Assembly (NCBI GenBank): GCA_950295325.1
Contig: OX485805.1
Coordinates: 47,330,758 to 47,394,757 of the forward strand
Direction of reading: 5' to 3'
Length of the DNA: 64,000 nt
From: Polytrichum commune
Lineage: Eukaryota; Streptophyta; Polytrichopsida; Polytrichales; Polytrichaceae
In this document: one piece after another, positions 22,063 through 51,555 of the stretch
How positions within the stretch are numbered: the first letter of the stretch is position 1
Layout: each line of letters begins with the position of its first letter
Program-made: the position numbers and the translations under genes
Notes under the pieces: model-generated
Told to the model about the DNA's origin: nothing
Databases searched by the model: none
What the model saw: the letters and a program-made list of their open reading frames with translations, nothing else

Positions 22063-22113
<51 letters not shown>
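22063..22113 (+). repeat. (GA)n tract in the leader region of the giant gene
   Basis: About 50 bp of uninterrupted GA dinucleotides preceded by GTGAGTGAGTGAGTGTGTGT. GA tracts in plant leaders are known binding sites for BPC (GAGA-binding) proteins; a role here is inference from position only. Confidence 0.8.
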
Positions 22114-23292: not shown

Positions 23293-26200
23293 ATGATTGG
23301 CAAGAAGATTCGTGTCTGTGGCCAATGTCGCCATGGATACGTAGGAAAAGGTGGAAGATGTGGGAGTGCAGAGTGCTTCGAGAGCTCAACAATGAGCTCG
23401 ACGGTGAAACCTTCGAAGCCGTCTTCATACGGTGCTAAACCTGCTGTGCTTGAGACCTCCAAGGCTTCCACCCTGAAAGCCAAGGCTGCAGAGCCCACAC
23501 CTCAATCAAGTGGCAGGAAACCTGTCGTTCCCAAGGTATGACTACTTTCCTTCTACTTATAGATTTTGAACATGTCATAGATATGGCTATCAACTTCCAG
23601 AACTGGGCTGTGAAATTTGAGAGTGTGCCAACAGAGGGCAAGACATTCTGTTGAATCTTCAGCCAATGGCACTGCTGCCAGCACTGTTGATGTACAAGTA
23701 ATTTCTTGTGCTGTCTGGGGATCTCTTTATATAAGAGAGAATCTGACAGAACCACTTGGCACCACATGCATAACTGTCTTGTAATATTAATAATATTTTA
23801 GTAAAACTTTTAATGTGTCCTTTTCGGTATGCGCCAGTAACTTAATAACGATGAAGCCTATGGCGGGAACTTTCTCAATGGCAACTCCTATGTTTTGTAT
23901 AACTTTCTGAATTTTTACTACTAATTTACAATAAGGTCCTAATATATTCGGCATTGAAGAATTTAGTATATTCTCCAGCACGAAGCAGCGATCACCAAGA
24001 TTGGCTCACACTAAAATTGTGGTTTTGGAAGCTAAGATGAGATGGAATGCCAAAGTGAAAGTTCTGTTGGACACAGAAGTCATGTGTTATTATTTTACAG
24101 CTAAACTAGTAAACTGTCTCTTTAACTAGATAGTCTATAGTATGGCATTGTAGAAATCCCGAAGCAACAGAAATCATCCAAATAGGAAAATCGTTGGTTT
24201 CCAATGTTCAGAACTTCCTGTATTTTTACAAAGTTACATTCGAGTCCTAAGTTTTGCATTGAAGAGTAAAGTTCACTCTCCAGCATGAAGCAATTTATCA
24301 ATTTTGGCTTCCCTGGAAATGTGGATATGGAAGCCAAGTTAAGATCTGCTAAGCCGTCCGTCCTATGTTGGTCATATATCTTACTGTTCTCCCTCTTTAG
24401 TATGACACGTTTGGGAAACACAAAAAAGTCGTATTCTCGAGGTGTTGTCTTCTCATTAATATGACAAATGGCGTAAAGTTGTTGTATTATCGAGGGAATA
24501 CAAAAACATAAGTAATATGAGCTTAAAAAATTATACAACGAGTTTAAGCAATATAGATGGTATGAAATAATAATTGATAACTCCAAACAAATACAAATAT
24601 TCTCAAGAACTCTTGAAATAGGAGTCCAAAGATCTTTGGTGGCATGCCACTCTAAACCTAACCATGTCCATTCTACACTAGTCACCCTAATTATCATTAA
24701 GTTCTCAATGATAAGTGAAGTTCCCAAATAGTTTCCAAGTGAAAATGGATGTATTTTAGATGTACATAACATAGATGAAAAAAATATTAGCATTAACTAC
24801 CTCATTAACTATTGTCATTAATATATTACAGAACAGAGATTCTAAATGCCACAAAAATGTGTCGTAATATCGAGGATGTTGTATAAACGAGTGTCGTATT
24901 AACAAGTGTTGTATTAACGAGGTTAGACTGTATTTCATATTTAACCTAACCTACACTATAGTATGGTAAGGGATCCCGAAGCAACGGAAATCATCCAAAT
25001 AGAAACTCGTTAGTTCGCAATTGGTGTTGAGGTGACAGAGTGTAGGTTAGCCAATCACAACTTGCCAACGTGGCATGCGCTTTATGGGAGCTTAGCGAAT
25101 CAGCCGAAGCTACCAATCCAGGATACCCCTGTCGTGCGGACCGTTGGTTGTCGGCCGAAGCTACCTATCCAGGATACTCCTGTCGTGGCGGAGGATTTCC
25201 TTGTAGCAGTTGTGAACTGTCGTTGCTGTGCTTTTCTACTCATAATAGAATACTCACTTGCCGTGACATTACTCTGCAGAGAGAGGAGGCTCCAAAGGCG
25301 GCGGAGAAGAGGAAAGGCTCATGGAAGGATGAGGAAGACGATATTGAGAGCACGTACGTTATTCTAGAGCAACCTCTTCCAGCTGCCGCACGCACATCTT
25401 CAAGACCCAACGTTGCTGATTCCAGGAGCAAGGAAATACCGAGCACAAATACGAACCTTAACTCAAAAGGCGCCTCAGGGCAACATTCTGTCGGTGTGCG
25501 GACGTCGACAAAGCCTGGGAGCGATGGTAAGAAAGGTACGAGTATCAGCAGCAGTGTCTCAGTGCCACGAACTGACGTGGTAACGCCATCCATTTCTGCA
25601 CCTACTTTTAGGAAGCCGGGTCCTGTCGTTAACCTTGCGGCAGGTTCTTCAAGACAAGGAGCTCAGAGTGCGGTTGCAGGGCCTTCTCATGTAAATGAAG
25701 AGTCTAAAAAGGTACCGATTCCTCAAATTGTACAATCAAGGGATATCAAGAATGCATGGAATATTCCTCCCTCGTCAAGTTCGGGCCCAGGTACAAGTGT
25801 GCAGCAAGATTCTAGTCTGGATGAGCCCCAGGAGCCAACCTACACATTTGCAGATAGATCCATATCCGTTGCTGCAGTCCCCGTTACGAGATTCCGCAGT
25901 GTTCCATTTGGCACAGTTCAAAGTGAATCAAGGGATGTCACGCCAAATGATAGTTTACCAACATGGATGGGTGAAAGAGCATTTCCTAACTTGCAATCTG
26001 GGCCAGCCGAGATTGCCAGTGAAAATAAAAGCTCTCCGTCTCGTGTTTCAGAAGAAATCTCGATTGAGAGATCATTACCCACTTTTAGTTTCTTCAGTAG
26101 GAAATTTGACGTGGTGGGTCCTTCGCAGCCTTCGGTGCTGAAGAATGACCGTGAGGATGTTGAGCCAACTTCCGTCCCAGAGGATGAGGATCCGGTAGAG

Positions 26201-29200
26201 ATGTGGAGCTCAGAACAAGAACACCCAGTGAAAGATGCTGCTGATTTTGGTGACAACTGGGAGCTAGTGTCAAGAGATTGGTCAAGAAGAACTTCCGAAA
26301 AGGTTGTTGAAGAGGCTGGGCCTGAAGCCTCACAATCTGAAGAGGGTGCGGGATCTGTCGATAATATTGCAGGGGGGTATGTATTACTTGGATCCCACAT
26401 GTTGGGAGCACCGGATCTGAATCAGTCAGAGACCTCCAATGACGAACCTCCAATGAGCTTTGACACAAGTGCCCAATCACAGAGCAAGGTATGTGCATTC
26501 ATAATTATGAGTTATCCAAAGTGAACAATTTCTGGTATGATGTGGAGACACCCATTAAGGGCACAAACCTACAATCTCATTTGGGGAACATACTTCCTAT
26601 GTAGAGTACTTCCCTCTTTTAAATTCAAAAGTTGCTTTACATAACTCCCACAAGATTATGCTGTGCAAAATTTTAAACTTCAAATTAAAGGCGCAGGCAA
26701 TCCTAATCTACGAGGAAACTGGCTCATAGCAGCTAGGAGATGATATAGATGATATACAATACTTACCATCTCTAATGTAGCTCTTCATTCTAGACTCAAA
26801 TTTATGCAAGACATATTCACAAAAATGAAGTTTGATCAACTGTGAGACGTCTTGACATGATTGCATTTATATGTAGCAGGTTGTTGCGAATGACAAAGAG
26901 CTGAACACAAAGGTTGTGCCCGACTCGGAAACTACTGATAGAATATCTGCCAAAGAGACAGATATGGAAATGCCGCCACTGGAGGTAGATGAAGAGGCCC
27001 CTGATACTGATGACCTTGAACTTGAAATGGAAGAAGAAGAAGAAGAAGTCGTTGTTGCACCCCTGGAGGACGCTCTGGTTGGAAAAACCACAGTTGAGGA
27101 GCAAATCATTGAGCAGGAGATGGCACCCGAGGTTGATGAGAAGGAATTCATTGAACCCACGGCTGAATTTGAGGAGATTGCCGCTCCCACTGAAGACACA
27201 CCCATTGAGGAAGAGGAATCGCCCACATTGCAGGCCAAGGAACTCGGAGCGCCAATTGACGCTCCACTTGAAGGAGCTGCATTGGAGGAAGAGAGCCCGG
27301 TTAAGGAGGACAAGGATGTGGAGGTTGAACGTGAAGAGGAAGAAGAAGAAGCTGTAGTTGCACCCGTGGACGAGGCTCCAGTTGAAAAAGCACCGGTCGA
27401 GGAGCAAGCTGCCATTGAAGAGGAGGCGACACCCGAGGTTACGGAGAAGGAATTCGTTGTACCCGAGGCTGAGGTTGACGAGGTTAACGCTCCCACAGAA
27501 GCCGCACCCATTGAGGACGAGGAATTTCCCGCATTGGAGATCAAGGAACTTGCTACACCAGTTGAGGAAGCACTTGAAGAAGCTGCAATGGAGGAAAAGA
27601 TCAGCCTGGTTGAGGAGGACAAGGTTGTTGAAGTAGAGGAAGCCGTTGTTGCACCCGTGGAGGAGGCTGCTCAGGTTGACGAATTACCCGTTGAGGAGCA
27701 ATGGATTGAAGAGGAGGCGGCTCCAGAGGTAGCGGAGAAGGAATTCGTCGGCCCTGAGGCTGAGGATGAGGATGTTGCGGCTCCCACTGTAGACGCACCC
27801 ATTGAGGAAGAGGAATTGCGGGCTGCGGAGACCAAGGAAGTTGCAGCACCAATTGAAGAACCTGCATTGGAAGAAGAGAGCCGGGTTGAGGAGGACAACG
27901 CTGTGGAGGTTGAACGTGAAGAGGAGGAAGAAGAAGCTGTAGTTGCACGCGTGGAGGAGGCTCCAGTTGAAGAAGCACCGGTCGAGGAGCAAGTTGCCAG
28001 TGAAGAGAAGGCAACACCCGAGGTTACGGAGAAGGATTACGTTGTACCTGAAGCTGAGTTTGACGAGGTTACCGCTCGCACAGAAGCCGCACCCATTGAG
28101 GACGAGAAATTGCCCGCATCGGAGATCAAGGAACTTGCTGCACCAATTGAGGAACCACTTGAAGAAGCTGAAATGGAGGAAAAGATCAGCCCGGTTGAGG
28201 AGGACAAGGTTGTTGAAGTAGAGGAAGCCGTTGTTGCACCCGTGGAGGAGGCTGCTCAGGTTGACGAATTACCCGTTGAGGAGCAAGGAATTGAAGAGGA
28301 GGCGGCTCCCGAGGCTGAGGATGAGGATGTTGCGGCTCCCACTGTAGACGAACCCATTGAGGAAGAGGATTTACGGGCTGCGGAGACCAAGGAAATTGCA
28401 GCACCAATTGAGGAACCACTTGAAGAAGCTGCATTGGAGGAAATGATCAGCCCGGTTGAGGAGGACAAGGTTGTGGAGGTCGAACGTGAAACGAAGGAAG
28501 AGCAAGGGAATGTTGCACCTGTGGAGGAGGAGACCCAGGTTGAAGAAGCACCCATCGAAGAGCAAGCGACTGAAGAGGTGGAGGCACCCGAGGTAGCGGA
28601 GAAGGAATTCGTCGCACCCGAGGCTGAGGATGAGGATGTCGCGGCTCCCACTGTAGATGCACCCATTGAGGAAGAGGAATTACGGGCTGCGGAGACTAAG
28701 GAAGTTGCAGCACCAATTGAGGAACCACTTGAAGAAGCTGCATTGGAGGAAGAGAGCCTGGTTGAGGAGCACAAGGTTGTGGTGGTTGAACGTCAAGACG
28801 AGGAAGAAGAAGCTGTAGTTGCACCCGTAGAGGGGGCTGCTCAGGTTGACGAAGCACATGTCGAGGAGCAAGCAATTGAAGAGGAGGCGGCACCCGAGGT
28901 GGCGGAGAAGGAATTTACTGCATTCGAGGCCGAGGATGAGGATGTTGCGGCTCCCATTGAGGAAGAGGAATTGCCCGCATTGGATAGCAATGAAGTCTAC
29001 TCACCAATTGAGGAGTCACTAAAAGAAACTGCAGTGGAGGAAGAGATCAGCCCAGTTGAGCAGGACAAGGTTGTTGAGGTAGAAGAAGCCGTTGTTGCAC
29101 CCGTGCAAGAGGCTGTTCAGGATGAGGAAGCATCAGTCGAGGAGCCGACAAGTCAAGAGGAGACGTCACCCGAGGTTGCCGAGAGGGAATTCGTCGCACC

Positions 29201-32200
29201 CGAGGCTGAGGATGTTACCGCTCCCACTGTAGAGGCACCCATTGAGGAAGAGGAATTGCCCGCATTGGAGAGCAATGAAGTCTACGCACCAATTGAGGAA
29301 CCACTTGAAGAATCTGCAGTGGAGGAAGAGATCAGCCCGGTTGAGCAGGACAAGGTTGTTGAGGTAGAAGAAGCCGTTGTTGCACCCGTAGAAGAGGCTG
29401 TTCAGGATGAGGAAACATCAGTCGAGGAGCCGACAAGTGAAGAGGAGACGTCACCCGAGGTTGTCGAGAAGGAATTTGTTGCACCCGAGACTGCGGTTGA
29501 GGAGGTTGCCATTGCCCCAGAAGAGGCACCCGTGGAGAAGGCTGCTCCCCTTGAAGAAGATGTAGTTGCACCTGTAGAGGAGGAGGCTCCAGTTGAAGAA
29601 GCACAGGTCGAGGAGCAAGCTGCCATTGAACAGGAGGTGACACCCGCGGTTGCGGAGAAGGAATTCGTTGTACCCGAGGCTGAGGTTCACAAAGTGACCG
29701 CTCCCACAGAAGCCGCACACACTGAGGAAGAGGAATCGCTAGCAGTGGAGACAAATGAACTCGACGAATCAATTGAGGAGCCACTTGAAGAAGGTGCAGT
29801 GGAGGAAGAGATCAGCCCAGTTGAGCAGGACAAGGTTGTTGAGGAAGAAGAAGCCATTGTTGCACCCGTGCAAGAGGCTGTTCAGGAAGAGGAAGCATCA
29901 GTCGAGGAGCCGGCAAGTAAAGAGGAGACGTCACCCGAGGTTGTCGAGAGGGAATTCGACGCACCCGAGGCTGAGGAGGTTACCGCTCCCGCTGTAGAGG
30001 CACCCATTGAGGAAGAGGAATTGCCCGCATTGGAGAGCAATGAAGTCTACGCACCAATTGAGGAACCACTTGAAGAAGGTGCAGTGGAGGAAGAGATCAG
30101 CCCAGTTGAGCAGGACAAGGTTGTTGAGGTAGAAGAAGCCGCTGTTGCACCCGTGCAAGAGGCTGTTCAGAATGAGGAAGCATCAGTCGAGGAGCCGGCA
30201 AGTAAAGAGGAGACGTCACCCGAGGTTGTCGAGAGGGAATTCGTCGCACCCGAGGCTGAGGAGGTTACCGCTCCCACTGTAGAGGCACCCATTGAGGAAG
30301 AGGAATTGCCCGCATTGGAGAGCAATGAAGTCTACGCACCAATTGAGGAACCACTTGAAGAAGCTGCAGTGGAGGAAGAGATCAGCCCAGTTGAGCAGGA
30401 CAAGGTTGTTGAGGTAGAGGAAGCCGTTGTCGCACCCGTGGGGGAGTCTACTCAGGTTGACGAAGCACCGGTCGAGGAGCAAGCGATTGAAGAGGAGGCA
30501 TCACCAAAGGTTGCAGATAAGGAATTCGTCGCACCCGAGGCTGAGGAGGTTACCGCTCCCACTGTAGAGGCGCCCATTGAGGAAGAGGAATTGCCCGCAT
30601 TAGAGAGCAAGGAAGTCTATGCACCAATTGAGGAACCACTTGAAGAAGCTGCAATGGAGGAAGAGATCAGCCCAGTTGAGCAGGACAAGGTTGTTGAGGT
30701 AGAAGAAGCCGTTGTTGCACCCGTGCAAGAGGCTGTTCTGGATGAGGAAGCATCAATCGAGCTGGCAAATGAAGAGGAGACGTCACCCGAGGTTGCCGTG
30801 AAGGAATTTGTTGCACCCGAGGCTGCGGTTGAGGAGGCTGCCATTGCCCCAGAAGAGGCACCCGTGGAGAAGGCTGCTCCCCTTGAAGAAGATGTAGTTG
30901 CCCCTGTAGAGGAGGAGGCTCCAGTTGAAGAAGCACCGGTCGAGGAGCAAGCTGCCATTGAACAGGAGGTGGCACCCGCGGTTGCGGAGAAGGAATTCGT
31001 CGCACCCGAGGCTGAGGAGGATACCGCTCCCAGTGTTGAGGCACCCATTGAGGAAGATGAATCGCTAGCAGTGGAGACAAATGAACTCGACAAATCAATT
31101 GAGGAGCCACTTGAAGAAGCTGCAGTGGAGGAAGAGATCAGCCCAGTTGAGCAGGACAAGGTTGTTGAGGTAGAGGAAGCCGTTGTCGCACCCGTGGGGG
31201 AGTCTACTCAGGTTGACGAAGCACCGGTCGAGGAGCAAGCGATTGAAGAGGAGGCATCACCAGAGGTTGCAGATAAGGAATTCGTCGCACCCGAGGCTGA
31301 GGATGTTACCGCTCCCACTGTAGAGGCACCCATTGGGGAAGAGGAATTGCCTGCATTAGAGAGCAAGGAAGTCTATGCACCAATTGAGGAACCACTTGAA
31401 GAATCTGCAGTGGAGGAAGAGATCAGCCCAGTTGAGCAGGACAAGGTTGTTGAGGTAGAAGAAGCCGTTGTTGCACCCGTGCAAGAGGCTGTTCAGGATG
31501 AGGAAGCATCAGTCGAGGAGCCGGCGAGTGAAGAGGAGACATCACCCGAGGTTGCCGAGAAGGAATTTGTTGCACCCGAGGCTGCGGTTGAGGAGGTTGC
31601 CATTGCCCCAGAAGAGGCACCCGTGGAGAAGGCTGCTCCCCTTGAAGAACCTGTAGTTGCACTTGTAGAGGAGGAGGCTCCAGTTGAAGCACAGGTCGTG
31701 GAGCAAGCTGCCATTGAACAGGAGGTGGCACCCGCGGTTGCGGAGAAGGAATTCGTTGTACCCGAGGCTGAGGTTCACAAAGTGACCGCTCCCACAGAAG
31801 CCGCACACACTGAGGAAGAGGAATCGCTAGCAGTGGAGACAAATGAACTCGACGAATCAATTGAGGAGCCACTTGAAGAAGGTGCAGTGGAGGAAGAGAT
31901 CAGCCCAGTTGAGCAGGACAAGGTTGTTGAGGAAGAAGAAGCCATTGTTGCACCCGTGCAAGAGGCTGTTCAGGAAGAGGAAGCATCAGTCGAGGCGCCG
32001 GCAATTGAAGAGGAGACGTCACCCGAGGTTGCCGAGAAGGAATTTGGTGGACCCGAGGCTGCGGTTGAGGAGGTTGCCATTGCCCTAGAAGAGGCACCCG
32101 TTGAGAAGGCTGCTGCACTTGAAGAAGCTGTAGTTGCACCTGTAGAGGAGGAGGCTCCAATTGAAGAAGCACCGGTCGAGGAGCAAGCTGCCATTGAACA

Positions 32201-35200
32201 GGAGGCGGCACGTGAGGTTTTGGAGAAGGAATTCATTGTACCCGAGGCTGAGGTTGACGAGGCTACCGCTCCCACAGAAGCCGCACACACTGAGGAAGAG
32301 GAATCGCTGGCAGTGGAGACAAATGAAATCGACGAATCGATTGGGGAGCCACTTGAAGAAGGTGCATTGGAGGAGGAGACTAGCCCAGGTGAGCAGGACG
32401 AGGTTGACGCACCCGTGCAAGAGGCAGCTCAGGATAAGGAAGCATCAGTCGAGGAGCCGGCAATTGAAGAGGAGTCGTCACCCGAAGTTGCAGAGAAGGA
32501 ATTTGTTGCACCCGAGTCTGCGGTTGAGGTTGCCAGTCACCACGAAGAGGCACCCGTGGAGGAGGCTTCTCCGGTTGAAGAAGCTGTAGTTGCACCTGTG
32601 GATGAGGAGGCTACAGTTGAAGAAGCACCGGTCGAGGAGCAAGCTGCCATTGAGGAGGCGGCGGCACGTGAGGTTGTGGAGAAGGAACATATTGTACCCG
32701 AGGCTGAGGCTGAGGTTACCGCTCCCACAGAAGCCACACCCATTGAGAAAGAGGAATTTCCTTCATTGGAGACGAAAGAACTTGCCGCACCAATTGAGGG
32801 ACCACTTGAAGAAGCTGCATTGGAGGAAGAGAGCCCGGTTGGTGAGGACAAGCTTTTGGAGGTTGAACATGAAACGGACAAAAATCAAGCCGATGTTGGA
32901 CCCGTGGAGGAGGCTGCCCCGGTTGAAGGAGCCGTAGTTGCACCCGTGAAGGAGGAGGCTCCGGTTGAAGAAGCACTGGTGGAGGAGCAAGCTGCCATTG
33001 AAGAAGAGGAGGTACTCGCGGTTGCGGTGAAGGAATTTCTTGCATCCGAGGTTGGGGATGAGGAGGTTGCTACTCCCACAGAAGAAGCAGCCATTGAGGA
33101 AGAGGAATTACCGGTCTTGGAAAGCAAGGAACTCGCTGCACCCATTGAGGAGACACTTGAAGAAGCGGCATTGGAGGAGAGCCCGATTGAGGACGACAAG
33201 GTTGTTGACCAAGAGGAAGCCATTATCACACCCGTGGAGGACAACGCTCAGGTTGAAGGAGCCGTTGAGGAGCAAGCGATTGAAGAGGAGGCGGCACCCG
33301 AGGTTGCGGAGAAGGAATTCTTCACACCCGAGGATGTTGCAGCTCCCACTGTAGAGGCACCCATCGAGGAAGAGGAATTGCTCGCATTGGAGAGCGAGGA
33401 AGTCGCAGAACCAATTGAGGAACTACTTAAAGAAGCTGCATTGGAGGAAAAGATCAGCCCAGTTGAGGAGGACAAGGTTGTTGAAGTAGAGGAAGCCGTT
33501 GTTGCACCCGTGGAGGAGGCTGCTCAGGTTGATGAATCACCCGTTGAGGAGAAAGAGATTGAAGAGGAGGCGGCACCCGAGGTTGTGGAGAAGGAATTCG
33601 TCGCACCTGAGACTGAAGCTCAGGAGGTTGCGGCTCCCACTGTAGAGGCACCTATTGAGGAAGAGAAATTGGAGGCTGCGGAGACCAAGGAAGTCTCCGC
33701 ACGGATTGAGGAGCCACGTGAAGAAGCTGCACTGGAGGAAGAGATCAGCCCGGTTGAGAAGGACAAGGTTGTTGAGGTAGAGGAAGCCGTGGTTACACCC
33801 GTGGAGGAGGCTGCTCCAATTGAAGAAGCACCTGTTGAGGAGCCAGCTGGCATTGAAGAGGAGGCGGCACCAGAGGTTGTGAACAAGGAATTTGTTGCAC
33901 CTGAGTCTGAGATTGAGGAGGCTACCGCTCCCACGGAAGAGACACCCAAACTTGCCGCACCTATTGAGGAGCGAGTTAAAGAAGCTGCATTGGAGGAAAA
34001 GATCAGCCTGGTTGAGGAGGACAAGGCTGTTGACGTAGAGACAGACGTTGAGGCACCGGTGCAAGAGGCAGCTTCAGTTGAGGAAGCACCAGTCGAAGAG
34101 CAAGCCTTTGAAGAGGAGGCGGCACCCGAGGTTGCAGAGAAGGAATTCCTTGCGCCTGAGCCTGAGGTTGAGGACGCTGCCGCATCTACGGAAGAGGCAT
34201 TCATTGAGGAAGAGGAATTGCATCCAGTGGAGATCGAGGAACCAGTTGATGAAGCTGCATTGGAGGAAAAAATCAGCCCGGTTGAGGAGGACAAGGTTGT
34301 TGAAGTAGAGGAAGTCGTTGTTGCACCCGTGGAGAAGGCTGCTCAGGTCGAAGAAGCACTCGTCGAGGAGCAGGCGATTGAAGAGGAGGTGGCACCCGAG
34401 GTTGCGGAAAAGGAATTCGTTGCGCCTGAGGCTGAGGATGAGGAGATTGCTGCTCCAACAGAAGAGGCACCCATTGAGGAAGAGGAATCACCAGTATTGG
34501 AGACCAAGGAACTCACCGCACCCATTGATGAGACATTTGAAGAAGCTGCATTGGAGGAAGAGATCAGCCCAGTTGAGGAGGGCAAGGTTATTGGGGTAGA
34601 CAACGCCATTATCGCACCCGTGGAGGAGGCTGCTGAGGTTGCAGAAGCACCCATCGAGGAGCAAGCGATTGAGGAAGAGGAGACACTCGAGGTTGCAGAG
34701 AAGGACTTTGTTACACCCAAGTCTGAGGTTGAGGAGGAGCCAGTTGAAGAAGCTGTATTGGAGGAAGAGATCAGCCCCATTGGCGAAAACAAGGTTGTTG
34801 AGGTAGAGGCAGACGTTAACGCACCCGTGCAGGAGGCCGCTTCAGTTGAGGAAGCACCAGTCAAAGAGCAAGGCTTTGAACAGGAGGCGGCCCCTGAGGT
34901 TGCAGAAAAGGAATACCTTGCACCGGAGGCTGGGAATGAGGACGTTGCCACTCCCACAGAAGCGGTACCGAATGAGGATGTAGAATCACTGGAATTAGAG
35001 ACCAAGGATCTCGCTGCACCCATTGAGGAGAAACTTGAAGAAGCTGCAGTGGGGGAAGAGAACCCGGTTGAGGAGGACAAGATTGTGGAGTTTGAACGTG
35101 AACAGGAGGAAGAGCCAACTGTTGTTTCGCCTGTGGAGGAGGATGCTTCGGTTGAAGAAGCATTGGTCCAGGAGAAAGCTGCAGTTGAAGAGGAGACGGC

Positions 35201-38200
35201 ACCCGAGGTTGCAGAGAAGAAATTCATTGCACACGACGTTGAGATTGAGGCTGCCGCTCCAACAGAAGATTCATCCCTGGAGAAAGCTGCTCCAGTTGAA
35301 GAAGCTGTAGTTGCACCTGTGGAGGAGGATGCGCGGGTTGAAGAAGCACCGGTCGAGGAGGAAGCTCCAGCTCCAACAGAGGAGGCAGCCGTGGAGGAGG
35401 ATGCACCAGTTGAAGAAGCACCAGTCGAGGAGCAAGCTGCCATTGAAGAGGAGGCAGCATCCGAGGTTGTGGAGAGGGAATATCTTTCACCGGAGGCTGG
35501 GGTTGAGGATGCTCCAGCTTCGACAGAGGAGGCAGCCGTGGAGGAGGATGCACCAGTTGAAGAAGAACCAATCGAGGAGCAAGCTGCCATTGAAGAGGAG
35601 GCAGCACCCGAGGTTGTGGAGAGGGAATTTCTTTCACCGGAGGCTGGGGTTGAGGATGCTCCAGCTCTTAGAGAGGAGACAACCGTGAAGGAGGACGCAC
35701 CAGTTGAAGAAGCAGCAGCCGAGGAGCAAGCTGCCATTGAAGAGGAGGCAGCCGTGGAGGAGGATACACCAGTTAACAAGGCACCGGTCGAGGAGGAAGA
35801 TGCCATTGAAGAGGAGATGGCACCCGAGATTGTGGAGAAGAAAATTGTTGCGCCCAAGGCTGAGGTTGAGGAGGCTGCTCCGGTTGAAGAAGCTGTCGTT
35901 CCACCCGTGGAGGAGGATGTACCAGTTGAAGAAGCACCGGTCGAGGAGCAAGCTGGCATTCAAGAGGAGGAAGTACCCGAGGTTGTGGAGAAGGAATTTG
36001 TTGCGCCCGAGGCTGAGATTGAGGAGGCTGCCACTCCCACAGAGCAGGACCCCATCAAGGACGCAGAACTGGAGACCAAGGAACTCGCCAAGCCCATTGA
36101 TGAGCCACTTGAAGAAGCTGCCTTGCAGGGAGAGAGTCCGGTTGAGGAGGACAGGATTGTGGAGGTTACAAATGAGTTGGAGGAAGAAAAAGCCGTTGTT
36201 CCACCCATGGAGGAGGATGCTCCTGTTGAAGATGCACATGTCGAGGAAGTTGCCATTGAAGAGGCGGCTGCACCTGAGGTTGCAATGAAGGAATACATTG
36301 CACCCGAGGATGAGGAGGTCGCCACTCCCACAGAAGAGGCACCCATGGAGGAGGCTGCTCCGATTGAGGAAGCTGTAATTGCATCCATGGAGGAGGATGC
36401 ACTGGTTAGAGAAGCACCGGTGCAGGAGCAAGCTGCCCTTGAGGCAGCACCCGCAACTGTGGAGAAGGAATTTGTTGCACCCGAGGCTGAGGTTGAGGAG
36501 GCTGCCGCTCCCACAGAAGAAGCACCCGTGGAGGAGGCTGCCGCTCCCATAGAAGAGGCACCCGTGGAGGACGCTGCTCAGGTTGAAGAAGCTGTAGTTT
36601 CACCTGTCGAGGAGGATGCACCGGTGCAAGAGCAAGCTGCCCTTGAAGAGGAGGCAGCAACCGCGACTGTGGAGAAGGAATCTCTTACACTCGAGGCTGA
36701 GGTCGAGGAGGCTGCCGCTCCCACAGAAGAGGCACCCGCGGAGGATCCTGCTCAGGTTGAAGAAGCTGCAGTTGCACCTGTCGAGGAGGATGCACCTGTT
36801 GAAGAAGCACTGGCGGAGGGGCAAGCTGCCCTTGAAGAGGAAGCGGCACCTGCTGTTGTGGAGAAGGAATTCGTTGCGCCGGAGGCTGAGTTTGAGAAGG
36901 CTACCACTCCCACAGAAGAGCCCCCCATTGAGGAAGTGGAATCGCCGGCATTGGAGACCAAGGAACTCACCGCACCAATTGAGGACACACTTGAGGATAC
37001 AGCTGCAGTGGAAGAAGAAAGCCTAGTTGAGGAGGTCGAGCTTGCTGAGGTTGAACGTGTAGCAGAGGAAGAGCAAACTGTCGTTGCACCCGTGGAGGTG
37101 GACGCTCCGGTTGAAGATGCACCGGTCGTGGAGGACACGGCCATTGAAGAAGCACTGGTGGACGAGCAAGCTGCCTTTGAAGAGAAGGCAGCACCTGAGG
37201 TTGCGGAGAAGGAATTTGTTGCACCTGAGGCTGAGGTTGGGGAGGCTGCCGCTCCCACAGAGGAGGCACCTGTCGAGGAGGCTCTTCCGATTGAAGAAGC
37301 TGTAGTTGCACCCATGGAGGAGGATGCACTGTTTGAAGTAGCACCGGTGAAGGAGCAAGCTGCCATTGAAGAGGAGGCGGCACCCGCGGTTGTTGAGAAG
37401 GAATTCATTGCACCCGTGGCTGTGGTTGAGGAGGCTACGGCTCTTATTGAAGAGCCACCCATTGAGGAAGTGGAATCGCCAGCATTGGAGACCAAGGCAC
37501 TCGTGGCACCAATTCAGGAGACATTTGAAGAAGCTACAGTGGAGGAAGAAAGCCCAGTTGAGGATGTCAAAGTTGCAGAGGTTGGACGTGAAGTGGAGGA
37601 AGAGCAAGTCGTCGTTGCACCTGTGGAGGCGGATACTCATGTTGACGATGCACTGGTAGTGGAGGAAGCTGCCATTGAAGAGGGAGCAGCACCCGAGGTT
37701 GTGGAGGAGGAATTCGTTGCACTGGAGGCTGGTGTTGAAGAGGCTGCTGCTCCGACAGAAGAGGCACCCCTGGAGAAGGCTGCTCTGCTTCAAGAAGCTG
37801 TAGTTCCGCCCGTGGAGGAGGATGCTCCGGTTGAAGAAGCACCGGTCGTGGAGGAAGCTGCCATTGAAAACGAGGCGGCCCCCGAGGTTGCAGGGAAGGA
37901 ATTTGTTGTTCCGGAGACTGAGGTTGAGGAGGCTGCCACTCCCACAGTGGAATCGCCGGCATTGGAAACCGAGGAACTCGCAGCACCAATTGAGCAGACC
38001 CTTGAAGAAGCTGTAATGGAGGAAGAGAGCCCGGTTGAGGAGGACAAGGTTGTGGAGGTTGAACATGAAGCGGTTGAAGAAGCACTGGTCGTCGAGCAAG
38101 CTACCATTGAAGAGGAGGTGGCTCCCAAGGTTGCGGAGGAGGAATTCATTGCAACTGAGGCCGAAGTTGAGGCTGCCACTCCCACTGAAGAGGCACCTGC

Positions 38201-41200
38201 AGAGGACGCTGCTCCAGTTGAAGAAGCTGTAGTTGCATTCGTGGAGGAGGAGGCTCCAGTTGAAGTAGCACCGGTCGAGGAGCAAGCTGCCATTGAAGAG
38301 GAGGCGGCACCCGTGGTTGCCGAGAAGGAATTCGTTGCACCCCAGGCTGAGGATGAGGATGTTGCCGCTCCCACAAAAGAGGAAGCTGCATTGGAGGAAG
38401 ATAGCCCAGTTGAGAGCGAGAAGGTTGTGGAGGTTGAACGTGAAGTGAAGGAAGAAGAAGCTGTAGTTGCAGCCGTGGAGGAGGAGGCTCCAATTGAAGC
38501 ACCGATGGAGGACAAAGAGGCGGCACCCGAGGTTGCTGAGAAGGAATTCGTTGCACCCGAAACTGAGGTTGAGGAGGACGAGATCCCAATCGAAGAGGAG
38601 CAGGCTGTGGAAATATCCCCTGAAGTTGTGGAGGAGGTTGCAGGTACTGCACGTGGCGCGGATCATGCTGGGATTGAGCAGAGTTCAGGGGATGATGAAA
38701 CAGCGGAGGTTGCACAGAAGGAATGCATTGTATCGGATGCCGAGCTCGTTGAGCCAACTGAGGAGAAAGCAACAGAAGCTTCACTTGAGGAAGATAATGT
38801 AGTGGTAGTTGAACCTGAATTGGTGGAACTTGAGGTTGTAGAGGAGGGATTCGTTGCACCTGTGGCCGTGGTTGCTGGAGAGACCGCAACATCAATTCCA
38901 GTTGAGGAGGACGAGAAGGCAATTGAAACTGATCTGAGGATGGAGGAGGCTAGGTCACCACCTGCAGGTGCGGAAGTAGAGGCCCCAGTTGAAGAAGAGA
39001 CTTTGATGGAAGAGGTAAAAGTCGAGGAAAAGCACTTGCCCGTAGTGGAGGCGGAGGATGTGGCTGGAGCATTTCAGGAGCCAATCTCTGAGGTTGCATT
39101 GGAGGAAGAGAGCCCAATCGAAGAGGAGAAGGTTGTGGAAGTAGGCCCAGAAGTCGAGGAGGAGGTTGCAGCTCCTGCACCCGTTGAGATGCACGCTGCA
39201 GGTGAAGAGAGCCCAGTGGAAGATGCAGCACCCAAGGTTACAGAGAAGGAAATAGTTGCACCCGAGGCCGAGCTCGTTGAACCCACTGAGGAGCAACCAA
39301 TAGATACTCCACTTGAGGAAGATAATGTAGTGGTAATTGAACCTGAAATAGAAGAAGCTGAGGTTGTAGAGAAGGAATTAGTTGCACCTGACACCGAAGT
39401 TGTGGGAGAGCCTGTGACATCGACTCCAGTTGAGGACGAGAAGGCAGTTGGAGTTGTTCAAGAAGAGGATGCAGTTCATGAGACTTTGATGGAAGAGGCA
39501 ACAGCAGAGGAAAAGGAATTGCCCGTAGGGGAGCCAACCCCTGAAGCTGCATTGGAGGAAGAAAGCCCAATCGCAGAGGAGAAGGTTGTGGAAGTAGGCC
39601 CAGAAGTCGAGGAGGAGGCTGCAGCTCCTGCACCCGTTGAGGTGCACGCTGCAGGTGAAGAGAGCCCAGTGGAAGATGCAGCACCCAAGGTTGCAGAGAA
39701 GGAAATAGTTGCACCCGAGGCCGAGCTCGTTGAACCCACTGAGGAGCAACCAATAGATACTCCACTTGAGGAAGATAATGTAGTGGTAATTGAACCTGAA
39801 ATAGAAGAAGCTGAGGTTGTAGAGAAGGAATTTGTTGCACCTGAGACCGAAGTTGTGGGAGAGCCTGTGACATCGACTCCAGTTGAGGACGAGAAGGCAG
39901 TTGGAGTTGTTCAAGAAGAGGATGCAGTTCATGAGACTTTGATGGAAGAGGCAACAGCAGAGGAAAAGGAATTGCCTGTAGGGGAGCCAACCCCTGAAGC
40001 TGCATTGAAGGAAGAAAGCCCAATCGCAGAGGAGAAGGTTGTGGAAGTAGGCCCAGAAGTCGAGGAGGCTGCAGCTCCTGCACCCGTTGAGGTGCACGCT
40101 GCAGGTGAAGAGAGCCCAGTGGAAGATGCAGCACCCAAGGTTGCAGAGAAGGAAATAGTTGCACCCGAGGCCGAGCTCGTTGAACCCACTGAGGAGCAAC
40201 CAATAGATACTCCACTTGAGGAAGATAATGTAGTGGTAATTGAACCTGAAATAGAAGAAGCTGAGGTTGTAGAGAAGGAATTCGTTGCACCTGAGACCGA
40301 GGTTGTGGGAGAGCCTGCAAAATCGACTCCAGTTGAGGACGAGAAGGCAGTTGGAGTTGTTCAAGAAGAGGCTGCAGTTCATGAGACTTTGATGGAAGAG
40401 GCAACAGTAGAGGAAAAGGAATTGCCTGTAGGGGAGCCAACCCCTGAAGCTGCATTGGAGGAAGAGAACCCAATCGAAGAGGAGAAGGTTGTGGAAGTAG
40501 GCCCAGAAGTCGAGGAGGAGGCTGCAGCTCCTGCACCCATTGATGAAGAGGCAACAGCCGAGGTTGCAGAGAGGGAATTCATTGCACCCGAGGAGGTGGA
40601 GGCTGAGACATCCCGAGTTGGAGTGGCAAGATCAGAGGAGGCAGAGGCTCAAGATTCGGTCGAGGTGGCTACTGCCAAAGCAAGTGAGGAAGCATCCACT
40701 GGGGAGCCGGCGGAGTCTGTTCCTTCTTATGTTGGGAACCCTCTTCTGAAGACTACATCAAGAGATCTTTCATTCAGAGGTTGGCAACCCTCTTTGGGCA
40801 TTGGCGGGCAACCCATTGAAGATGTCACCAAAGTAGACGATGTCCTAGGACAGGAATCTTCTACACCACCTTCACAAGACAAGCACGTAGAAGAGAAAGT
40901 GGACAAAGCAGAAGCACTAGTAACTTCAACAGGTCAGTACATGAGTATGCACATATGTGCCTCATGCGCTTAACTCGTTGTAATTTAACACTTTGCATTT
41001 GAGACAGAAAGTGAGGAAATTTTCAAACATTGTTGATTGAGAAGTTTGAAAATGGCAATATTTTCGAATTCCAAGGCAATGAATCACAACCACCCCTGCA
41101 ACAAGACATATTTGCCGCCATGAGGTGAACATTGCACAGCATGACGTGAATATTTCAAAACGATGACAACTGGATGGACTGACATGTGGTTTTGCCTCAG

Positions 41201-41391
41201 GAGAAGAGACTGTCGCTGCAAATGACAATGGTGCCGCATTCAACTACCCCCTAGACACCGTACTACTCAAATCAGATGAGAAAAAAGAAGAGTTATTAAA
41301 TGTCTTCCACTCGCTTGACAGTAGCTCCACCAGTCTAATGAGCAACTTGCTGCTTGAAGGAGAAGAAACCACAGCAGCAGCATCTGCTTGA
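23293..41391 (+). CDS. Giant acidic Glu/Ala/Val/Pro-repeat protein, 4 coding exons, about 5,231 aa
   Basis: I do not recognise this protein. Exons joined by eye: 23293-23535, 25280-26488, 26880-40932 and 41201-41391. Every junction has GT-AG and keeps the frame (phases 0, 0, 1); total 15,696 nt including TGA. An in-frame TAG lies 12 nt before the ATG, supporting this start. The N-terminus has four cysteines (C9, C12, C23, C28; CxxC...CxxxxC) that could bind zinc. Residues about 82-484 (exon 2) are Ser/Pro-rich and disordered-looking, with short aromatic motifs YVIL (107-110), WELV (408-411) and YVLL (448-451). Exon 3 encodes about 4,680 residues of acidic repeats. The last about 110 residues are non-repetitive and end in a Leu/Ser-rich segment (VFHSLDSSSTSLMSNLLL). 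Composition resembles titin PEVK-type entropic springs, but that is analogy only. The open frame before exon 2 extends upstream to about 25070, so an alternative first exon is possible. Existence of the gene: confident. Function: unknown. Confidence 0.85.
23920..25194 (+). repeat. Duplicated segments inside intron 1 of the giant gene
   Basis: The intron (23536-25279) holds degenerate copies of a roughly 160-bp segment at 23920-24080 and 24225-24370 (sharing CTCCAGCA[CT]GAAGCA), a direct repeat at 24131-24215 and 24955-25035 (sharing CCGAAGCAAC[AG]GAAATCATC), and a 54-bp tandem duplication at 25098-25194 (sharing CCGAAGCTACC and ATCCAGGATAC). It therefore grew by local duplication as well as by transposon insertion. 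Confidence 0.65.
24384..24930 (-). mobile_element. pogo/Lemi-type MITE, copy B, within intron 1 of the giant gene
   Basis: 547 bp bounded by TA on both sides (24382-24383 and 24931-24932). The right end read inward, CAGTCTAACCTCGTTAATAC, matches the left end CTGTTCTCCCTCTTTAGTAT imperfectly. CAGT..AACCTC ends with a TA target are typical of plant pogo-like (Emigrant/Lemi) elements of the Tc1/mariner superfamily. Its left half is close to the copy at 6796-7575. No transposase frame is present. Confidence 0.65.
29463..31996 (+). repeat. Internal segmental duplication, offset about 2,088-2,091 bp, inside the repeat exon
   Basis: The block at 29463-29910 reappears at 31553-31996 almost unchanged, including the rare stretch TTCACAAAGTGACCGCTCCC (29686 and 31774). 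The offset is 2,091 bp before and 2,088 bp after a single GAA codon loss. This indicates duplication of a roughly 696-residue block on top of the short unit repeats; intermediate partial copies of its first part occur near 30832 and 32065. Confidence 0.85.
39096..40545 (+). repeat. Recent 453/453/450-bp tandem triplication near the 3' end of the repeat exon
   Basis: Units begin at 39096, 39549, 40002 and (partial) 40452, each starting GCATT before GAGGAAGA or a near variant. They encode 151, 151 and 150 residues and are nearly identical by eye, unlike the diverged units further upstream, so this array was amplified or homogenised recently. The 150-residue unit lacks one glutamate codon. Confidence 0.9.
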
Positions 41392-42736: not shown

Positions 42737-44416
42737 TTAGAGCCGACTCTTCGGAGAAAGGCTGCCCAGAGCCTTGGCTTTCGTGCGAAGAATATGCTTT
42801 TGAATCTTGCCGGTAGCAGTTTTGGGAAGCGGACTAAACACCACGGAGCGAGGCACCATAAAATGCGGCAGCTCTTTTCGACAGAACTGAATCACATCTG
42901 CTTCCGTGAGAGTCGCATTCTCCTTGAGTGTAACGAAAGCACATGGCGTCTCGCCCCACTGCTCATCCGGCCTCGCCACAACCGACGCTTCGAGGATTGC
43001 CGGGTGCCGGTACAGAATACTTTCGACCTCGAGGGAGCTGATGTTCTCGCCTCCGGAGATGATGATGTCCTTCGCACGGTCTTTGATTTCGATATACCCA
43101 TCTGGGTGTTTTACGGCAATGTCCCCAGAATGGTACCACCCGCCTTTGAAACTCTCCTCGGTCGCCTTCGGATTGTTCAAGTATCCTTTCATCACCATGT
43201 TGCCACGCATCACGATTTCCCCTAATGTGACGCCGTCCGCAGGAACGGGGGCTAGGGTTTTAAGGTGCACAACATCGAGCGCCTCGAGCCCCACGTACCG
43301 AACCCCTTGGCGAGAGTTCAAAACTGCGCGATCCTCCAACGGCAACTCGTCCCACTCCGGCTTCCATGCGCAGATCGTCGACGGGCCGAACGTTTCCGTG
43401 AGCCCGTACGTGTGTGTCACCCTAAACCCTTGCTCCTCCATTTTGGCAAGCACCACCGCGGGCGGGGCCGCACCCGCGGTCATCACATGCACCTTGTGCG
43501 GCATGTAAGGTCTCTCCGACTCCGGGGAATTGATCAACATGTTGAGCACCACGGGGGCACCGCAGAAATGCGTAACCCCATGGTCCGCGATCGCTTTGAA
43601 GATGTCGGACGCTGTGACATGGCGGAGACACACATTCGTCCCTGCTTGTGCAGCCATACCCCATGTGTAACACCATCCGTTGCAATGGAACATGGGGAGC
43701 GTCCAGAGGTAAACAGCACCGATCGGAACCTCCCATACAAGAATGTTGCTCAAAGCTGCGAGGTACGCTCCTCGGTGGCCGAGAACCACACCTTTAGGGC
43801 TGGAGGTTGTGCCTGAAGTGTAACATAGGGAGATCGAGTCCCACTCATCTGCAGGGGGATTCCAAGCAAATTCTGGATCACCCTCAGCAAGAAAAGTCTC
43901 GTACTCAATTGCACCGCGGGTTATGGCGGTGGCGAAACCCTTGTGTTTGCTGCGATCAATGTGGCCAAGACCTTCCTCCGCAATGATGAGCAGGGGGAGC
44001 TTGAATGACCCGAGCTTCTCAGCCATGACGGAGAGTGCTGTGTCGATGAGAGGGAAAAACTCTTCGTCGACGATGAGTGCTTTGGCTTTTGAGTGTTGCA
44101 GGAAGAAGGCGATCATGCGCGGGTCGAGACGGATGTTGATGGTGTTTAGAACCATTCCGGCCATAGGAACTCCGAAATGGGCCTCGTACATCACCGGGAC
44201 GTTGGGCGCGACCACGGCCACGATGTCGCCCGCGGTTAGTCCGTTGCGGAGGAGAGACGATGCCATCTTTCGGCACCGCGCGTAAGTCTCCGACCATGTG
44301 TAGCGGTGCGGGCCGTAAATCACTGCGGTTCGGGATCCATAGACGAACGCCGCCCGCTCCAGAAATCCCAGCGGGGTCAAGGGGGTGTAATTTGCTGGCA
44401 CTTTCCCCAACGCCAT
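42737..44416 (-). CDS. Acyl-activating enzyme (AMP-binding acyl-CoA synthetase), probably peroxisomal, 559 aa
   Basis: Single-exon member of the ANL superfamily (plant acyl-activating enzymes, acetate/butyrate/benzoate-CoA ligase-like clade). It activates a carboxylic acid with ATP to an acyl-adenylate and then forms the CoA thioester. Visible motifs: YTSGTTSSPKG (199-209, ATP phosphate loop), YGLTETFG (337-344), GWYHSGD then YIEIKDRAKD (426-451), SGGENIS (454-460) and PKTATGKIQK (531-540) with the catalytic lysine near 537. The C-terminus is SRL, a canonical type 1 peroxisomal targeting signal. The open frame runs four codons further upstream, but its first codon is TTG; the ATG at 44416 (MALGKVPANYTPLTPLGFLE) matches where the family usually starts. 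The length is normal. The exact substrate cannot be told from the sequence. The gene is convergent with the giant repeat gene. Confidence 0.93.
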   Translation of the reverse strand: MALGKVPANYTPLTPLGFLERAAFVYGSRTAVIYGPHRYTWSETYARCRKMASSLLRNGLTAGDIVAVVAPNVPVMYEAHFGVPMAGMVLNTINIRLDPRMIAFFLQHSKAKALIVDEEFFPLIDTALSVMAEKLGSFKLPLLIIAEEGLGHIDRSKHKGFATAITRGAIEYETFLAEGDPEFAWNPPADEWDSISLCYTSGTTSSPKGVVLGHRGAYLAALSNILVWEVPIGAVYLWTLPMFHCNGWCYTWGMAAQAGTNVCLRHVTASDIFKAIADHGVTHFCGAPVVLNMLINSPESERPYMPHKVHVMTAGAAPPAVVLAKMEEQGFRVTHTYGLTETFGPSTICAWKPEWDELPLEDRAVLNSRQGVRYVGLEALDVVHLKTLAPVPADGVTLGEIVMRGNMVMKGYLNNPKATEESFKGGWYHSGDIAVKHPDGYIEIKDRAKDIIISGGENISSLEVESILYRHPAILEASVVARPDEQWGETPCAFVTLKENATLTEADVIQFCRKELPHFMVPRSVVFSPLPKTATGKIQKHILRTKAKALGSLSPKSRL

Positions 44417-44484
44417 CTCCGCAAGCAACTACTACCAACAATCACCGAAACTCTAACTCTACCTCTAACTCCGCAATATACCCC

Positions 44485-50733: not shown

Positions 50734-51555
50734 TCACTTCCCTATCTCTTTCTTCCCGAGAAGGACTTCCTCATTCAGGAGCACCACACGCTCAGGAGCC
50801 GGGCGGTCTTGCCCTCCGAAGTGCTGTTGCGCCCAACGCATGATTGGCAGAAGCACTATGTACAAGGCGAGAAATAAGAAAGGGCCGGCGACAAGCCAAC
50901 CTAAGAGGGCGTGCGCTATGGCAAGCAGCAATGCGCTCGACGCTTTCCCTGTGAGGGCCTGCCAAAGCGCGTCTTTCGAAAGCACATACGGGTCGGCACC
51001 TACTAGGGTTTCACCTACACGTAGAAAGGGTATCATCATACTGAACTCCAGCGGCGTGGCAAGGAGATTTCCCAACATCAAGGTGGGGGCGTGACACTTC
51101 CCTCCTAGGATTGCCACTGCTAGGCCGCACAGGAAGACTGTTATGCCGTAGATTGGGAAGACTCCAAGAGTAATGCCCAGAGCTGCGGACATGGCCAGCT
51201 GCTTCGGCTCTGTTCCCCTGTCAAAGTGAAAGCAAATTGACAATGAGTAAGTGATGCCAAACGTGCCCAAGAAAGCCAGCAAATCCTTTATAGGACTACG
51301 GAGCCGAACAACAAAGTATCCAGAAATCAATGTGTTGCCTGCGCAGGATGGCCCTAGGAGGATTGTAGATGGCCAAAAGTGAATTGAGAATGAGTTAAGT
51401 GATACCAAATGTGCACAGGAAAGACCACAAAGACGAGCAACAAGGTAGAAAGCATCCATTGCTCAATGGGTGAGCTACCTGCGCAGGATGGCCATGAGCG
51501 GATTGTAGATGGTCGTTCTCGCCCATCGCACCAGCCAGAAACTACGCCACCCCAT
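50734..51555 (-). CDS. DUF2062-family integral membrane protein, two exons, 186 aa
   Basis: Exon 1 is 51555-51479 and exon 2 is 51217-50734, joined by a GT-AG intron that completes an arginine codon (LRR|GTEPKQLA). The start gives MGWRSFWLVRW...YNPLMAILR, the expected N-terminus of plant DUF2062 proteins, whereas an unspliced reading through the intron would give an unrelated N-terminus. The conserved core is LGVFPIYGITVFLCGLA, CHAPTLMLGNLLATPLE and HALLGWLVAGPF. Three hydrophobic segments lie at about 37-63, 70-91 and 121-152, followed by a charged C-terminal tail. The biochemical role of the family is unknown, and no targeting peptide is obvious. Length fits plant relatives of about 180 residues. 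Confidence 0.88.
51227..51505 (-). repeat. Tandem duplication of the exon-1 end plus intron start of the DUF2062 gene
   Basis: GCGCAGGATGGCC occurs at 51341 and 51481, exactly 140 bp apart, each followed by GATTGTAGATGG. Flanking intron sequence is also duplicated (AATGAGT[T]AAGTGAT[AG]CCAAA near 51244 and 51389). On the minus strand the inner copy reads as a degenerate exon-1 end (IYNPPRAILR) followed by GC instead of the GT donor. Confidence 0.8.

Follow-up and report, generated by a model that had tools for sequence, protein, structure and literature searches.

A predicted giant acidic repeat protein gene of the moss Polytrichum commune, with expanded and unexpanded relatives in the same genome

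A 64,000-nucleotide stretch of the Polytrichum commune genome (contig C3, 47330758-47394757; hereafter the window) holds a gene, here called C3, for a predicted giant acidic repeat protein. Four exons on the plus strand join in frame with GT-AG borders. Exon 1 (23293-23535) provides the start codon and an N-terminus with cysteines (MIGKKIRVCGQCRHGYVGKGGRCGSAECF...), exon 2 (25280-26488) encodes 403 amino acids (aa) rich in Ser and Pro, exon 3 (26880-40932) runs unbroken for 14,053 bp, and exon 4 (41201-41391) encodes the conserved C-terminus ...SLMSNLLLEGEETTAAASA, followed by the stop. Recomputation returned exactly the model of a preliminary description of this DNA, with 5,231 residues, a single terminal stop, and the 14,053-bp repeat exon, whose reading frame extends from stop to stop over 26877-40973 (4,698 codons). 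The product is giant and strongly negative, as had been claimed: it has a mass of 562.6 kDa, an isoelectric point (pI) of 4.05, and a net charge (K+R minus D+E) of about -1,419, and is composed of 28.3% E, 15.5% A, 13.6% V, 9.0% P, and 3.9% K. From sequence comparison with four further loci, which we call C2, C7a, C7b, and C3b after their contigs, we are highly confident that the window holds a real four-exon moss gene from a five-locus family, encoding a giant, polyanionic, and probably disordered protein.

Tandem repeats with listed periods of 33 to 477 bp occupy most of C3 exon 3. The acidic repeat region (27027-40709, plus strand) comprises 4,561 codons with 52-53 detectable units, and its youngest array (39077-40543, plus strand) consists of 3.2 copies of a 453-bp unit with 96% match. 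The unit core is V-[AV]-E-[KR]-E-F-[VIL]-A-P-E, or, in short, V-x-E-K-E-F-V-A-P-E. A hidden Markov model (HMM) built from 43 C3 units detected 53 units above 15 bits in the repeat region of C3, 64 in that of C2, and 25 in that of C7a, compared with means of 0.03, 0.17, and 0.00 in 30 composition-preserving shuffles; the C3 count is partly by construction, those of C2, C7a, and C7b are not. Scanning whole proteins gave 52 units in C3, in line with the roughly 54 first described, 64 in C2, 23 in C7a, and, as a count that lacks a shuffle control, 8 in the C7b frame. Most aromatic residues occupy a single place in the unit. Counted without any picking of units, those that follow [KR][ED] number 42 of 70 in the repeat region of C3, 62 of 95 in that of C2, and 22 of 32 in that of C7a.

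The repeats had been likened to the PEVK segment of titin, and the likeness holds for P, E, and V, as both proteins are giants with a long region of repeats rich in these residues. It fails for K, which makes up only 3.9% of C3 against 28.3% E, hence a polyanion; unlike titin, C3 carries a strong net negative charge and, having no Pfam match, no Ig or Fn3 domains. A PEVK-type spring was rejected on lysine content and charge. We also dropped a PAM2-like reading of the C2 core KEFVP, which, compared by eye with the PAM2 consensus (LNxxAxEFxP), does not fit at the leucine and alanine positions.

Judged by sequence likeness, C3 is not alone: at least four related loci, overlooked by the preliminary description, lie in the same 407.8-Mb assembly of 64 contigs. 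The plastid psaB of this genome has its best PDB matches in 8htu, 6l35/7xqp, and 7ksq/7kux, photosystem I structures of Physcomitrella, which agrees with a moss origin. Our genome searches scored the best candidates only, so that counts of loci and matches are lower bounds. A composite query of C3 repeats gave at least 61 matches, 39 of them in C3 itself, 20 in an 8,560-aa frame on contig C2 (E 0.0015 or weaker), and 2 in a 4,022-aa frame on contig C7. Among the best 150 of 193 candidates for a composite query of C2 units were the contig C7 frame (C7a), with E down to 2.4e-14, a new frame of 1,110 aa (C7b), and a weak match (E 1.27) at 33.21 Mb of contig C3. The same place was matched by C2 exon 2 (E 0.05), and the locus there is the unexpanded relative C3b. 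Searches with C3 exon 1 (E<=10) and exon 2 (E<=1) returned the C3 gene only, the latter missing C3b as well, and C3b exon 2 (E<=10) matched itself, C2, and C7a and no further relative. The C3 stretch that precedes the last intron, used as a query, matched only itself in the genome and is therefore not shared.

The modelled relatives differ greatly in length. C2 encodes 8,779 aa (938.5 kDa, pI 4.05, net charge about -2,504) with an exon 3 of 25.6 kb, whose donor was picked from among four in-frame GT dinucleotides by the C7a donor position; the alternatives yield 8,726-8,734 aa. C7a encodes 4,253 aa (453 kDa, net charge about -995), and C3b (contig C3, 33210795-33214450, minus strand) encodes 802 aa (87 kDa) in three exons, its frame ending after WPPAPLGSE. 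C7b is a recent copy of C7a, diverged by 1-2% in exons 1-2 and introns and by 4% upstream. Relative to C7a, it has lost 1 bp where exon 3 begins, which shifts the frame, and it may be a pseudogene. The N-termini also vary: C3b starts MGKCASRER, C2 and C7a start MGKG, and the window protein starts MIGKK. The C3b start looks like an N-myristoylation/S-acylation start, and membrane attachment may differ between family members.

The exons link these loci further. Exon 1 of C3 gives alignment scores of 75 with its C2 counterpart and 63 with that of C7a, and exon 4 scores 97.5 and 62.5 against the last exons of C2 and C7a; none of 1000 shuffles reached any of these scores. A last-exon frame was found in C7b too and was looked for, but not found, in C3b. 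The similarity of C3 exon 1 to C3b is not significant (score 37, reached by 60 of 1000 shuffles), while exon 2 matches C3b exon 2 with E 7e-9 (composition correction off), and the N-terminal parts of both proteins align with a score of 206, compared with a mean of 89 (standard deviation 15, maximum 139) in 200 shuffles. C2 matches C3b in exon 1 (E 1.9e-7), exon 2 (E 6.8e-6), and the C-terminal region (E 8e-5), values that are generous because the subject was the 9.9-kb C3b locus only. The exon 1/2 border is in phase 0 in C3, C2, C7a, and C3b, and the exon 3/4 border is in phase 1 in C3, C2, and C7a; borders in the paralogues were hand-chosen for open frame and likeness, which makes the shared phase at both borders partly a matter of construction. 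At the exon 2/3 border, C2, C7a, and C3b are in phase 1 and C3 is in phase 0. Homology of the first exon, the last exon, and the repeat unit among paralogues supports the C3 gene model, and the predicted splice sites of C3 are likewise backed by the paralogues. Two weak units occur in C3b, with 9.6 and 8.6 bits compared with 8.8 bits for the highest-scoring of 500 shuffles, and the repeat unit was likely seeded in a C3b-like protein.

A Cys4 N-terminus, part of the layout first proposed, did not survive the comparison as a family feature: just one of the four cysteines of C3 exon 1 is matched in the C2 alignment, and exon 1 of C7a, C7b, and C3b has the same single GKC-A-S cysteine in that stretch. 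We rejected a zinc ribbon (Cys4) on this ground and since exon 1 has no Pfam match at E<=1.

Selection on the repeats was estimated by comparing 40-codon blocks with their best in-frame nucleotide match (Nei-Gojobori, no transition bias). The ratio of nonsynonymous to synonymous substitution (dN/dS) is 0.58 in C3 (bootstrap range 0.51-0.66, 93 pairs), 0.69 in C2 (0.62-0.75, 187 pairs), and 0.60 in C7a (0.50-0.75, 78 pairs), and no stops occur. The five other frames give 0.68-1.04 in C3, 0.80-1.06 in C2, and 0.84-0.95 in C7a, every one with stops, and the coding frame is the sole stop-free frame in the compared C3 blocks; the minus strand of the C3 array also has long open frames of up to 553 aa. 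The low end of the C3 controls is reverse frame 1 (0.68), a value that we interpret as a shadow of codon wobble. In the C3 repeats, about 4.6% of single changes create a stop. Had the 1,190 block-pair differences been random, some 55 of them should have been stops; none was seen. Outside the repeats, dN/dS between C2 and C7a is 0.40 in exons 1 and 2, 0.77 in the 5' part of exon 3, 0.26 in the C-terminal region, and 0.27 in the last exon, and the last exons of C2 and C3 give 0.21 over 58 codons (proportion of synonymous differences 0.69). Gap lengths were set aside as a test of the frame: the multiples of three among gap placements (1,193 of 2,188 in C3, 1,820 of 3,261 in C2, 14 of 30 in C7a) come from overlapping self-alignments and are not independent. 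By these comparisons, purifying selection on the repeats is real but moderate, and it agrees with the exon homology in pointing to a coding gene; both the purifying selection and the coding status had been proposed from the sequence of the window. That C3 is an unexpressed, decaying, or chance open frame, a reading in whose favor the 1-bp deletion in its relative C7b can be cited, is very improbable in view of the selection, the exon homology across paralogues, and the absence of the expected stops.

C7a and C7b (contig C7, 29.52 Mb and 27.03 Mb) are a recent duplication 2.5 Mb apart and form a natural experiment in repeat turnover. They are 95.7% identical over 5.35 kb that reach from upstream DNA through exons 1-2 into the first part of exon 3, and 95.2% identical over 0.95 kb downstream, and the array is about 9.5 kb (3,158 codons) in C7a, whereas about 2.7 kb of matching array is present in C7b. 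Such near-identical flanks around very different arrays indicate that array length is loosely controlled. The pair also favors an explanation in which only the termini matter and the array is a tolerated tandem expansion, kept open through selection against truncation before the C-terminal exon. In keeping with this, dN/dS of the repeats (0.58-0.69) exceeds that of the terminal comparisons in four cases out of five (0.21-0.40, with 0.77 in the remaining one), and F is kept no better than other residues. Yet dN/dS remains below 1 and stops are absent in all three arrays, and the same unit core recurs in three genes, and we consider this explanation rather unlikely.

No part of C3 that was searched matched a named family, as the preliminary description had supposed. 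Pfam-A gave no match for exon 1 (E<=1), the exon-2 and exon-3 frames, or exon 4; NCBIfam gave none for the exon-2 and exon-3 frames, the parts searched there, and PDB sequences none for the 484-aa N-terminal part, the portion compared. Disorder had been claimed as well, and AlphaFold without an alignment returned a mean predicted local distance difference test (pLDDT) score of 43.6 and 43.7 for two pieces; such low values are weak evidence for disorder and suggest that the protein is probably disordered. A strongly charged, disordered protein could also act as a bulk polyanion, buffering cytosolic cations, water, or osmotic pressure without a specific partner. The net charges of all three giants and the 28.3% E of C3 would suit such a role, but charge alone leaves unexplained the conserved islands outside the repeats and the unit sequence shared beyond composition, and we regard it as quite improbable.

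The C3 family is an uncharacterised family of an already known broad kind, and our literature searches on giant moss and bryophyte proteins found nothing on it. Midasin and BIG both carry recognised domains. They match the moss family in size (730 kDa and 568 kDa in the consulted part of PMC6681478; Arabidopsis midasin has 5,393 aa according to an excerpt of PMC5099923), and no recognised domain was found in the moss sequences searched. The view of the preliminary description that no named family has this layout holds for the parts searched, but unnamed giant acidic proteins are already published: the same part of PMC6681478 lists Sphfalx0133s0012.1 of Sphagnum fallax (9,126 aa, 1,027.64 kDa, pI 4.05), XP_002985373.1 of Selaginella (8,462 aa, pI 4.02, 'unknown/titin-like'), and OAE35580.1 of Marchantia (7,651 aa, pI 4.83). 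These resemble the moss family in size class and pI, the Sphagnum pI equalling that of C2 and C3, and no function is given there; they are listed by mass only, and the likeness is one of description and not of membership.

Another comparison is with RBB1 (At5g40450), the regulator of bulb biogenesis, which in the accessible portion of PMC4411111 is described as a plant-specific protein of 2,890 aa without domains, similar to about 40 other plant proteins only within a 75-aa C-terminal region. It is found in the cytosol and the membrane fraction, and mutants have more vacuole bulbs and fewer strands. Like the moss giants, RBB1 is very large, has no recognised domain, and concentrates its conservation in a short C-terminal sequence; it is shorter, and the comparison is by description only. 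The family might thus be a bryophyte counterpart of RBB1, a very large, plant-specific, domain-free, cytosolic, and membrane-associated protein that shapes vacuole strands and bulbs. The short C-terminal exon kept in the moss giants recalls the confined similarity of RBB1, itself domain-free and present in both soluble and membrane fractions. However, the putative orthologues reported for it are at most 3,715 aa long, and the main text of PMC4411111 never uses the word 'repeat'; we consider this identity unlikely.

Conserved islands outside the repeats suggest a different role. The best windows between C3 and C3b are ADFGD[NK]WEL[LV]SR (11 of 16 identical), YT[FI]ADRS[IV]S...P (10 of 16), and GYVLLG (8 of 16). 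In C3, the first is the island ADFGDNWELVSR, with WELV at 26258-26269, the second is the island YTFADRSISVAAVP (25841-25882), and the third lies within GGYVLLG, with YVLL at 26378-26389 (all plus strand). Two of the three windows contain WEL[LV] or YVLL, which have the shape of ATG8-interacting motifs (AIMs). All four complete proteins contain WE.[LV]. C7a has WELV, WEFV, and WEMV in its non-repeat C-terminal region, a number of WE.[LV] motifs reached by 1 of 500 shuffles, and the C2 repeats have EEWELV three times (0 of 500 shuffles) where, by eye, other units have EEKEFV, although these may be copies of one another. The xLIR pattern (excerpt of PMC5119064) fits YVLL of C3 and C3b, SEWELV and SDWEMV of C7a, and the three EEWELV of C2; TEWEFV of C7a lies outside it. 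A further xLIR match in C3, YVIL (25355-25366, plus strand), was dropped as a conserved AIM, as the paralogues have DVIF or NVMF instead.

Motifs of this shape are known from other systems. The plant ATG8-interacting proteins ATI1 and ATI2 of Arabidopsis have a functional NEWEVV in a disordered region, and rice has ADWEVV (excerpt of PMC8666691), a W-E-V-V type resembling the moss motifs; they also have a predicted transmembrane segment, a feature not looked for in the moss proteins, and giant repeats are found in the moss proteins only. The glycophagy receptor STBD1 has the AIM 203-WEMV-206 (excerpt of PMC7297954), the same shape as SDWEMVP of C7a; it is named for a starch-binding domain, whereas the searched moss sequences have no Pfam match.

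Taken together, we propose that C3 and its relatives, a family of five loci, may be giant, disordered, polyanionic, and multivalent tethers or adaptors that bind ATG8, a reading to which we assign a probability of roughly 0.36; the ATG8-binding step, taken by itself, is tentative. Several observations weigh against it. The conserved DNWELV of C3 and DKWELL of C3b depart from the xLIR pattern at their second residue, N and K, respectively. In the non-repeat sequence of C3, chance would produce about one W-x-x-[LIV], the observed count is reached by 351 of 500 shuffles and the two xLIR matches there by 64 of 500, and WE.[LV] alone, reached by 40 of 500 shuffles in C3 and 30 of 500 in C3b, is near chance. 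W-type motifs are absent from the C3 repeats, KEFVAP does not qualify as an AIM, and the non-repeat sequence of C2 has no xLIR match. A genome query with C3b exon 3 (E<=1) matched itself only and none of the giants. The lowest control frames in the selection test overlap the bootstrap range of the coding frame in C3, C2, and C7a, those of C2 being as low as 0.80 and 0.83. Finally, F is identical in 70 of 97 cases (0.72) in the best-match blocks of C3 and in 124 of 159 (0.78) in those of C2, versus 0.81 and 0.83 for all residues. The 43 units of the HMM had been chosen by a pattern that admits only F, Y, H, or I in the aromatic position, which biases the conservation figures derived from them (F or Y in 38 of 43; ratio of nonsynonymous to synonymous differences 0.42 in the core, compared with 0.50 on the left side and 0.77 on the right). 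Given this biased picking and the unpicked comparison, special constraint on the aromatic core is not shown, and a role of the core as a docking peptide is a guess.

Under the ATG8-tether reading, the ancestral protein would have resembled the 802-aa C3b, and the family would have grown as an acidic unit centered on V-x-E-K-E-F-V-A-P-E was amplified in tandem. The aromatic motifs outside the repeats (WEL[LV] and YVLL in C3 and C3b; WELV, WEFV, and WEMV in C7a) would dock ATG8, as might the three WELV in the C2 repeats, on autophagic or vacuolar membranes, while the long acidic arm would display many copies of the KEFVAPE peptide to another partner. No fixed array length would be needed, in keeping with protein sizes that range between 802 and 8,779 aa.

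The surroundings of the gene contain further features. A (GA)25 run at 22064-22113, about 1.2 kb upstream of the C3 start codon, is a possible GAGA-type promoter element. Just downstream of C3, an unbroken 563-aa frame on the minus strand (42737-44428) is of the AMP-binding (acyl-CoA synthetase) type (PF00501, E 7e-74). Farther along are a minus-strand frame (50737-51462) matching DUF2062 (E 3.4e-9), a Pfam family described as bacterial, and a plus-strand RGG/GRG-rich frame (59673-60092) for which Pfam gave no match at E<=0.1.

In its fullest form, the proposal is that moss polyanionic giant tethers, with up to 8,779 aa and a 25.6-kb exon, arose from an ordinary 802-aa adaptor through amplification of one acidic unit and connect membranes that are vacuolar or carry ATG8 with a partner recognising the KEFVAPE core dozens of times over; this chain of steps, drawn from sequence, is speculative and, as a whole, rather unlikely. 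What the family offers is short and expanded relatives together in one genome, with small conserved handles in WEL[LV], GYVLLG, the last exon, and the repeat core. This makes it directly testable how giant disordered plant proteins arose and what they do.

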